Source: Alkalihalobacillus sp. AL-G
GTDB taxonomy: Bacteria; Bacillota; Bacilli; Bacillales; Fictibacillaceae
Reading direction: 5' to 3'
NCBI RefSeq assembly: GCF_030643805.1
Contig: NZ_CP094656.1
Location: 310,001-374,000 of the forward strand
Length of the DNA stretch: 64,000 bases
The translations under genes were made by a program, and so were the position numbers. The notes under the pieces are model-generated. The model had not been told where the DNA came from and ran no database searches. It saw only the letters and a program-made list of their open reading frames with translations. Position 1 is the stretch's first letter. Each line of letters begins with the position of its first letter. Below are positions 1 to 45,965 of the stretch, piece by piece.

Positions 1-708
1 GATGTATTCCAAAATACAAACCTCGAATATATTGAAAAACTATTGAATCACGCTTCGCTCGAAAACGAAACCATTTCACCTGATTTACGTGATTTTTTTG
101 AACGGATCATACAAGTTGGTTGGCCATTGAACTATCTGACGAAGGGGCTCCAAGCGTTTCGTCGAGTGGCAATTAAAACGGTGCTGGATAAAAACTATGA
201 CATGGAAAAGGCCATTAACGTATACGATTTAATCGATCGTTCGGTAGATGGACTATTGAATGAGATTGTTAAATTCTCAAATCAGACATGGAGAAACACC
301 ATTTCCGTTCAGAAAACGGCGCTGTTAGAGCTTTCCGCACCTTTAATTCCAGTGTTCGAACAGATAACTGTAATGCCATTGATTGGAACGATTGATACAG
401 AACGGGCAAAATTGATTATGGAAAATTTGCTTGAAGGTGTAATCAATCATCGTTCCCAAGTGGTATTGATAGATATAACAGGTGTTCCTGTCGTGGACAC
501 GATGGTGGCACACCATATTATTCAGGCTGCTGAGGCCGTCCGTCTTATCGGATCGAAGTGTATTCTCGTAGGTATAAGACCTGAAATTGCTCAGACAATC
601 GTAAATCTAGGTATTGATCTTAGTGATTTTCCGACGAGGAGTACTCTTCTTAAAGGAATTGAGTCTGCACTCGAGTTGACGAATAAAAAAATTGAATCGT
701 TATCTTAG
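1..708 (+). CDS. rsbR: RsbR, stressosome scaffold protein (5' end outside window)
   Basis: The reading frame is open to the left edge of the window, so the start lies upstream; a TTG at 43 is not a convincing start. About 235 codons are visible, against roughly 270 for the family. The N-terminal part is the variable non-haem globin-like sensor domain. The C-terminal half is a STAS domain with the VVDTMVA motif, whose Thr is the site phosphorylated by RsbT in known RsbR proteins. RsbR and RsbS build the stressosome that holds RsbT until stress. It is followed after 11 nt by rsbS, and the order rsbR-S-T-U-V-W-sigB-X is that of Bacillus subtilis. The identity is secure; which RsbR paralogue it is cannot be told beyond its position in the operon. 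Confidence 0.93.
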
Positions 709-44677: not shown

Positions 44678-44763
44678 CTTGTTGTTACATTTGTGTATCG
44701 GTTGGCGATATGGCTTGTAATTCATGTCGAAAACCCTCATATTTAATAGAAAGGAGGCCCGAT

Positions 44764-45504
44764 ATGCGACGCGATATACAACCCAATGAACGAGCATTCA
44801 CTACAAAGGAAGTTGCCGAAGAACTGGAAATAGCCACCCCTACGGTCCGTAAGTATGGGCAAATCTTAGAGCGGAACGGATATGAATTTTTGAAAGATGG
44901 CGATCGGCGTATATTTGTTCAAAGTGATATCGGAGCACTTATAGCGCTACGCGATACAGACAAGCCCCTTGACGATACAGCTAAAGGCGCAGTATATCAA
45001 CAAAGGGAAAGATTAAAAGATTCCAATGAAACTGACATAGCGCTACCCGATACATATGAAAATGTGCCCCACGACCCCAATCAATTAAAAGATGCTTTAA
45101 AATATGTCGTTCAGGAACTGGCAGCTACACGTGAAATGAATGTCCAACTGACAAACGATATGTCACAGCTTAAAACAACGGTATCGAGACTTCAGCAAGA
45201 TCACCATGCGATAAGTTCCAGTATTGGAAATACCGCACAAAAAACGAATGTTAAAATTGAAAACTTCACCAAACAACAAAAGGATTTTTACGAAACCTTG
45301 TTAGAGCAAGAGAAAAACCATTATGAAGACTTGCTACAACAAGAAAAGCAAAAAAGCGAACTGTTACAAAAAGATATAAAAAGCATGAGAGAAGAGCAGG
45401 TTAAAGAATGGCGTTCCCAAAATGATTTCAACAAACGTTTAGAAGAAGCGATCCAAAAACCGAAAGAAAAACGAGGTGGGCTTTTCTCTTTATTCCGTAA
45501 ATAA
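44764..45504 (+). CDS. RacA-like MerR-type DNA-binding protein with long coiled coil
   Basis: From ATG 44764 (AAGGAGG at 44751-44757; the frame upstream to 44710 crosses a binding palindrome) it encodes 246 residues. Residues about 10-65 form a MerR-type winged helix-turn-helix (AFTTKEVAEELEIATPTVRKY). Residues about 115-235 are charged, heptad-like coiled coil rich in Gln, Glu and Lys. The C-terminus KRGGLFSLFRK is a short basic amphipathic tail that could touch membrane. The layout resembles RacA, the chromosome-anchoring protein of sporulating Bacillus, and DUF3967-type plasmid proteins. Copies of the palindrome TATCGCyxGGCGATA lie before, within and after the gene, presumably its binding sites. 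The function is inferred, not known. Confidence 0.75.
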   Translation: MRRDIQPNERAFTTKEVAEELEIATPTVRKYGQILERNGYEFLKDGDRRIFVQSDIGALIALRDTDKPLDDTAKGAVYQQRERLKDSNETDIALPDTYENVPHDPNQLKDALKYVVQELAATREMNVQLTNDMSQLKTTVSRLQQDHHAISSSIGNTAQKTNVKIENFTKQQKDFYETLLEQEKNHYEDLLQQEKQKSELLQKDIKSMREEQVKEWRSQNDFNKRLEEAIQKPKEKRGGLFSLFRK

Positions 45505-45936
45505 AGGCGATATGGACAAGCAATATACCCTGAAATAATGTTTTTAAAACAGAAATGCACACTGATGAGCTGGTCAGCAAAGATTTGGTCGGTTCTTTTT
45601 TGTGCCGTATCGCCCGGCGATATGTATGAATGAGGATAACATTCAAAATCAGGTGAAGAAAAGCGTATAAAGAGAATATGGAATGGATGTGAGTCTTGGC
45701 AGACAACAGGGTGCTTATATCGCTAGGCGATACAAAAGGGTACTGTGATACATGGACTTACAAGGGCAGCAATATGATTCAACTAAAAGGTCCTTAACAG
45801 ATGTTCATATCGCCCGGCGATATGACGAAATTTCATGCTGGCGCTACGCACTATTTTTCAAATTTCAACAATTTCCCGAGAAATATCTACAAATTCTGCT
45901 GCATAATTCGATTCGGACGAGAGCGAATGTTTCCCA

Positions 45937-45965
45937 AAGACATTCAGTTCGTGTATCGCTATAAT
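45937..45965 (+). promoter_or_regulatory. Promoter of the M20 peptidase gene, overlapped by a palindrome half site
   Basis: AAGACA (45937-45942), 17 nt and a perfect TATAAT (45960-45965). The half site TATCGC (45954-45959) directly abuts the -10 box, so the neighbouring DNA-binding protein may affect it. Confidence 0.55.

Follow-up and report, generated by a model that had tools for sequence, protein, structure and literature searches.

Proteins that tie DNA to the membrane on their own are few (RacA, RocS and pSK1 Par), and the mechanism of motor-free DNA segregation by such single-protein tethers is described as still open (PMC11500499). We analysed a stretch of 64,000 nucleotides from Alkalihalobacillus sp. 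AL-G (hereafter the window), which holds a gene for a predicted DNA-binding coiled-coil protein (the binder gene) set amid 15-bp palindromes of the form TATCGC-NNN-GCGATA. Decayed copies of this gene with intact palindromes are the strongest sign that the array itself may be under selection. We consider it a shade better than an even call that the locus comprises a coiled-coil protein that binds DNA and is tied to the membrane, together with a centromere-like array belonging to it, as a relative of plasmid partition loci.

RocS of Streptococcus pneumoniae is similarly chromosomal and has a DNA-binding domain, a coiled coil and a C-terminal amphipathic membrane helix, to which the basic hydrophobic end of the window protein may correspond. 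The window protein differs from it in lacking a match to DUF536, which was not among its 19 Pfam matches listed at E<=1, and in having a sharp palindrome with an array at the gene itself. Compared with Par of the staphylococcal plasmid pSK1, the window system is chromosomal, likewise has no DUF536 match, and has palindromes also inside and after the gene. It differs from RacA of Bacillus subtilis in that strong sites are confined to the gene of the binder itself (3/3 exact sites in the window genome), with none spread over the origin region, and in that the protein has a basic hydrophobic tail of its own. The DUF3967 plasmid proteins (PF13152) have a comparable MerR-like head, coil and basic, aromatic-bearing tail (L210), whereas PF13152 was not among the Pfam matches listed at E<=1 for the window protein and the DUF3967 loci examined showed no long array; DUF3967 was not mentioned in the open literature searched. 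KfrA of the IncP/IncU plasmids is described as having a DNA-binding head with a long coil and autoregulation, a plan that the window protein may share. The arrangement of the single-protein plasmid partition class, a binder gene beside repeated sites, is present in the window, with putative binding and stabilisation. Among the matches listed for RacA, RocS and pSK1 and for Priestia plasmid arrays in the open literature (subscription literature was not covered), no title or abstract opening described this locus.

The palindromes and the gene are arranged as follows (window positions; the strand is given where it applies).
44696..44710: upstream palindrome with one mismatch (TATCGGTTGGCGATA), from the pattern scan
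44715..44743, + strand: putative promoter TTGTAA-17-CATATT, 4 bp after the palindrome, read by eye
44764..45504, + strand: binder gene, 246 amino acids, an open reading frame (ORF) preceded by AAAGGAGG
44942..44956: palindrome inside the gene with one mismatch, codons 60-64 (IALRD), from the pattern scan
45038..45052: another palindrome within the gene, weaker (two mismatches; IALPDT), from the pattern scan
45199..45213: two-mismatch match inside the gene, unconserved
45567..45595, + strand: terminator-like stem after the gene (three stems in the region, 1.2 expected in shuffles)
45608..45622: downstream palindrome, exact, from the pattern and genome scans
45718..45732: downstream palindrome, exact, from the pattern and genome scans
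45808..45822: downstream palindrome, exact, from the pattern and genome scans

When the pattern was scanned with at most two mismatches, the window contained eight sites, compared with 1.69 (standard deviation 1.21) expected, and seven of the eight fall within 1.13 kb at the binder locus (those listed above, three of them exact). The sequence-only reading had claimed at least eight sites; the array and its three exact members stood, but the tool counted seven rather than eight, a difference that half sites would explain. In the window genome (4.16 Mb), all three exact sites and five of the six with at most one mismatch are located at the binder locus, whereas the number at two mismatches (69, against 65 for the reversed control) corresponds to background. 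A spread of strong sites over the whole genome was rejected because all three exact ones are at the binder gene, and the even distribution that the sequence-only reading had named as counting against itself was not found. The match at 45199 is probably a chance occurrence because no relative was listed with a site at its place (+435). The 21 bp around 45718 resemble the inside-gene site (19/21 identical, E 1.8e-4); apart from this stretch, no recognisable gene copy surrounds the downstream sites of the window. A half site (TATCGC, 45954-45959) touches the TATAAT at 45960-45965 before the next gene. This contact, pointed out previously, is real, but a lone 6-mer carries no weight, and an operator of the next gene was rejected as the sole account of the array since it rests on this half site.

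The protein is present in 8/8 genomes of the genus and 32/34 of the family, and order-wide, at E below 1e-50, in 95 of 397 genomes. Within the family, exact sites were found in 31/32 genomes with the protein and 0/2 without it. Across the order, at least two exact sites occurred in 43/95 genomes with the protein versus 0/302 without it, and at least one in 58/95 versus 15/302. Each of these 15 protein-less genomes has a single exact site, and we regard these sites as background because they are fewer than the 31 hits of the reversed pattern in the same 302 genomes. The pairing of a site with its binder, proposed from the window alone, is supported by this co-occurrence across 397 genomes.

Relatives were located at 110 places in GTDB genomes, and the best 80, all loci from named genomes, were kept; these are 67-93% identical across genera. 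Relative to the start of the gene, sites recur approximately 69 bp ahead, at +178 in the coding sequence and, farther on, mostly between 700 and 1800 bp downstream. The positions that this survey listed for L016-L023 were not used for counts, and the control used permuted arms with the inside-gene places excluded, as the reversed pattern fits the inside-gene site with one mismatch. In a set of 120 proteins, those with Lys at residue 30, in the recognition helix (K30), have a site around the gene in 101/109 cases, and the 11 R30 proteins have none there, inside-gene places left aside. Because the tree shows just one to three R30/K30 changes, too few to count, the link between helix residue and site fits recognition of the palindrome without proving it. 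No alternative exact palindrome was common to three or more of 14 R30- or T26-type loci. In one genome (G069:C1:1147274-1147988), the binder gene is split over two frames, and the protein can therefore be lost.

Decayed copies of the gene were observed in 32/73 loci, up to 3 kb downstream or 2 kb upstream of the living gene. The remnants were detected by protein likeness alone; 42 downstream remnants have an estimable start, and 39, in 25 loci, include the place of the upstream site. At that place, a palindrome with at most one mismatch was found in 35/39 remnants (25 exact) and in 8/700 control windows, no site being counted twice. Some remnants are shared among related species, so that independent events are fewer than rows. 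The inside-gene place retained at most two mismatches in 18/42 remnants and at most one in 1/42, so the inside-gene site decays with the gene. In a comparison of 18 remnants with the intact site of the living gene, the identity was 0.97 in the arms, 0.68 and 0.72 in the flanks, and 0.67 in the coding sequence; the presence of an intact site was the selection criterion for these 18, but not for the set of 39. Seven Peribacillus-type loci lack the upstream site at the living gene, yet 14/14 dead copies retain theirs. The earlier description of a centromere-like array is supported in that the sites, those at dead copies included, are conserved as an array.

In the living genes (81 loci, the window included), the +178 place matches the pattern with two mismatches or fewer in 76/81 and with one or none in 36/81. 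Codons 58-63 show the strongest synonymous bias of any six-codon window in the gene, and R63, encoded by CGC in 79/82 sequences, is the most biased codon of 210; therefore, the DNA, not the protein alone, is conserved there. The second inside-gene place (+274 in the window) has at most two mismatches in only 11/81 living genes, which weakens the case for this site. Before the gene, a site with at most one mismatch is present in 57/81 loci and starts 69 bp before the ATG in 26/57. A promoter of the form TTGNAW-16..18-YATAWT follows it in 39/57 loci, compared with 1/1140 shuffles; a stricter consensus scan did not list the putative promoter at 44715-44743. Because a promoter regularly follows the upstream palindrome, autoregulation of the binder gene is likely.

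The same placement, mostly 4 bp before a conserved -35/-10 pair, suits the alternative that the protein is a MerR-type transcription factor, for which the upstream palindrome would be the operator and the other sites operators of neighbours or decoys setting the amount of free protein. The genomes of group g2 (probably Fictibacillus) offer a further example: in 13/18 of them, an exact palindrome separates spoVT from a gene that by eye looks like a flippase gene, and in 9/13 it ends 14 bp before a TATAAT; it is 68-69 kb from dnaA in the three measurable genomes. A decoy role would also account for the sites at dead copies. However, sites are found inside the gene and at dead copies, where there is no gene to regulate, the seven Peribacillus-type loci lost the upstream site at the living gene and kept it at dead copies, and the exact sites of the window genome are not distributed over promoters. 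To our knowledge, a hydrophobic basic tail is not found in the usual MerR regulators and would be unusual for one. This alternative is real and may hold alongside anchoring, but we consider it rather unlikely.

The ORF at 44764-45504 confirmed the gene previously read as encoding a 246-residue protein with a MerR-type helix-turn-helix and coiled coil. A mechanical ORF list gave an earlier start (44710, 264 amino acids); M1 and R2 of the 246-residue form are identical in 82/82 aligned sequences. The protein is predicted to consist of a winged helix-turn-helix (approximately residues 10-66), a helix (69-88) and a long helix (105-231). Its C-terminus is basic and hydrophobic (KEKRGGLFSLFRK), and this character is conserved; the moment of the last 11 residues is 0.36 in the window protein and ranges from 0.23 to 0.81 (mean 0.56) in relatives. 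In a structure search with the N-terminal domain, RacA-DNA headed the list, tied with other MerR-type proteins. This agrees with the RacA-like plan recognised earlier, and by structure comparison of the predicted model the domain appears to be a MerR-type winged helix of the RacA kind. The Pfam MerR family (PF00376) scored 12.7 bits, below its cut-off of 28.2, while the predicted fold is nonetheless MerR-like; nothing exceeded the cut-off in Pfam or NCBIfam. The suggested sequence comparison with RacA and DUF3967 matched neither (PDB; Pfam at E<=1): the PDB sequence search gave nothing below 0.5 and no RacA chain (single sequence, E<=1; profile, E<=10). No phage relatives were found at E<=0.01, and Foldseek gave no match to viral structures at or below 0.001.

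The tied first rank of RacA in the structure list raises the alternative of a RacA analogue for sporulation, with DivIVA as its link between the origin side and the pole. The chromosomal position also suits it. In the 27 more complete genomes, the binder gene lies 255-554 kb after dnaA in 15 (one R30 type; 354 kb in the window genome), 322-447 kb before dnaA in six, and elsewhere or unplaced in six. The distances were reckoned by hand, the dnaA contig being treated as the circular chromosome even where an assembly has 2-5 contigs. On the other hand, the window genome has no many-site zone around the origin, and the tail suggests direct membrane contact. We regard a RacA analogue as the least probable of the explanations weighed here.

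The closest plasmid relatives are in five Priestia megaterium plasmids of 101-133 kb (rep_cluster_385), annotated as MerR family or hypothetical proteins. They are approximately 30% identical to the window protein, with a nearly identical palindrome, arrays on either side and a similar tail; the differences are a shorter protein (176 amino acids) and regular 74-bp tandem repeats. In four of the plasmids (L211, L214, L215 and L217), the relative is located about 1.1 kb before a gene whose annotation is replication protein (three) or DUF2959 protein (the fourth), and it is flanked by 6.4-11.5 copies of the repeat upstream and 2.3-2.7 downstream. TGTCGCCCTGCGATA or a close variant is found in the downstream units, joined in two plasmids by TATCGCCCTGCGATA; the versions in the upstream repeats are weaker and have two mismatches. 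The Priestia gene has an inside site at +268 (VSPPDI), which aligns with +274 of the window (IALPDT). In one plasmid (100 of 103.4 kb scanned), TRTCGCNNNGCGAYA has five matches at one mismatch or fewer, all of them at the locus of the relative; the feature table of that stretch, which is incomplete, names no ParA, ParM or TubZ. A tandem-repeat scan of 16 plasmid loci gave five long arrays (the four Priestia plasmids and L216), short repeats only in four, and none within 1.5 kb in seven. Older work on Bacillus megaterium plasmid replicons may describe the 74-bp repeats. The plasmid-partition link guessed from the window is supported by these relatives with an array near a replication gene.

Three other plasmid loci are recorded here as separate observations. 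L216 (2087-3884) has a 409-bp repeat of 4.3 copies before the relative, with parM nearby; in L220 (6980-8684), the relative stands directly before a ParM/StbA gene; and in L218 (37612-38397), a gene behind the replication gene of the Priestia plasmid encodes a protein annotated as plasmid stabilization protein, which matched no Pfam family at 0.01.

With 292 plasmid records containing a relative of the Priestia protein, the locus could also be a module of plasmid origin, domesticated or selfish, that propagates through tandem duplication and relocation and has no host function, its sites being kept by the action of the protein or of recombination. The neighbours differ in most of the 80 kept loci, some genomes have several copies, and the frequent dead copies described above point the same way. 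Against it stand the retention of the gene throughout the genus and in nearly all of the family, the high identity of the kept relatives across genera, and a location 7-84 kb before guaA in 14 of the 27 more complete genomes, where the gene is therefore often inherited in place. We consider this explanation improbable.

The anchoring proposal is based on co-occurrence, position, conservation, dead copies with intact sites, the plasmid counterpart and the predicted fold; from these we infer binding, multimerisation, membrane contact, anchoring or segregation, and a shared ancestry of locus and protein. The protein would bind DNA as a dimer or oligomer, its winged helix reading TATCGC-NNN-GCGATA, while the coiled coil would multimerise and the basic hydrophobic C-terminus would sit in the membrane. 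Together, the palindromes upstream of, within and downstream of the gene would form a small centromere-like array where the protein clusters, and through this clustering the origin-side part of the chromosome in which they lie would be tied to the membrane. By way of the palindrome that directly precedes the -35 box, the protein would also control its own gene. As a chromosomal form, the locus would be related to the single-protein partition loci of plasmids, and it and the Priestia plasmid locus probably have a common ancestor. In many lineages, the array may have grown by duplication of site and gene, after which the extra genes died and the sites stayed.

The binder gene occurs once in the window genome; its neighbours are groEL on one side and a gene that by eye resembles an M20 peptidase gene on the other, and an Rfam search gave no match at the locus. 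The spoVT-side sites of Fictibacillus (L123-L135; G009, G010, G012, G013, G016-G024) have left and right flanks of 34% and 60% identity, respectively; they were picked for an exact match, hence the identical arms. Four genomes (G166, G108, G094 and G050) have 15-22 sites with at most one mismatch each, compared with 4-7 for the reversed control. Irregular palindrome clusters in them (L201-L204 in G166/G108; L190-L191 in G094/G050) are on contigs other than that of the gene, although these assemblies are broken and some clusters could be near the gene; one lies within a perfect inverted repeat of 37 bp (near 2835 in L190). An exact site is located 71-126 kb downstream of the gene in four genomes that belong to one group (L197-L200; G043, G201, G151 and G371), at differing points and with surroundings that look linked by eye (a small membrane protein, a symporter and a CBS-type protein).

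It is possible, and we put it forward tentatively, that many Bacillaceae have a second, motor-free system of chromosome anchoring or segregation, which would consist of one protein and a small centromere that includes a site in its own gene, would originate from or be akin to plasmid partition, and would enlarge itself through the sites of dead copies. In a chromosomal system that is widespread, has a sharp and countable site and is matched on plasmids by a regular array, the number of sites, the position of the array and the tail could each be altered. Sites that outlive their genes are unusual evidence for a chromosomal array with a function of its own.
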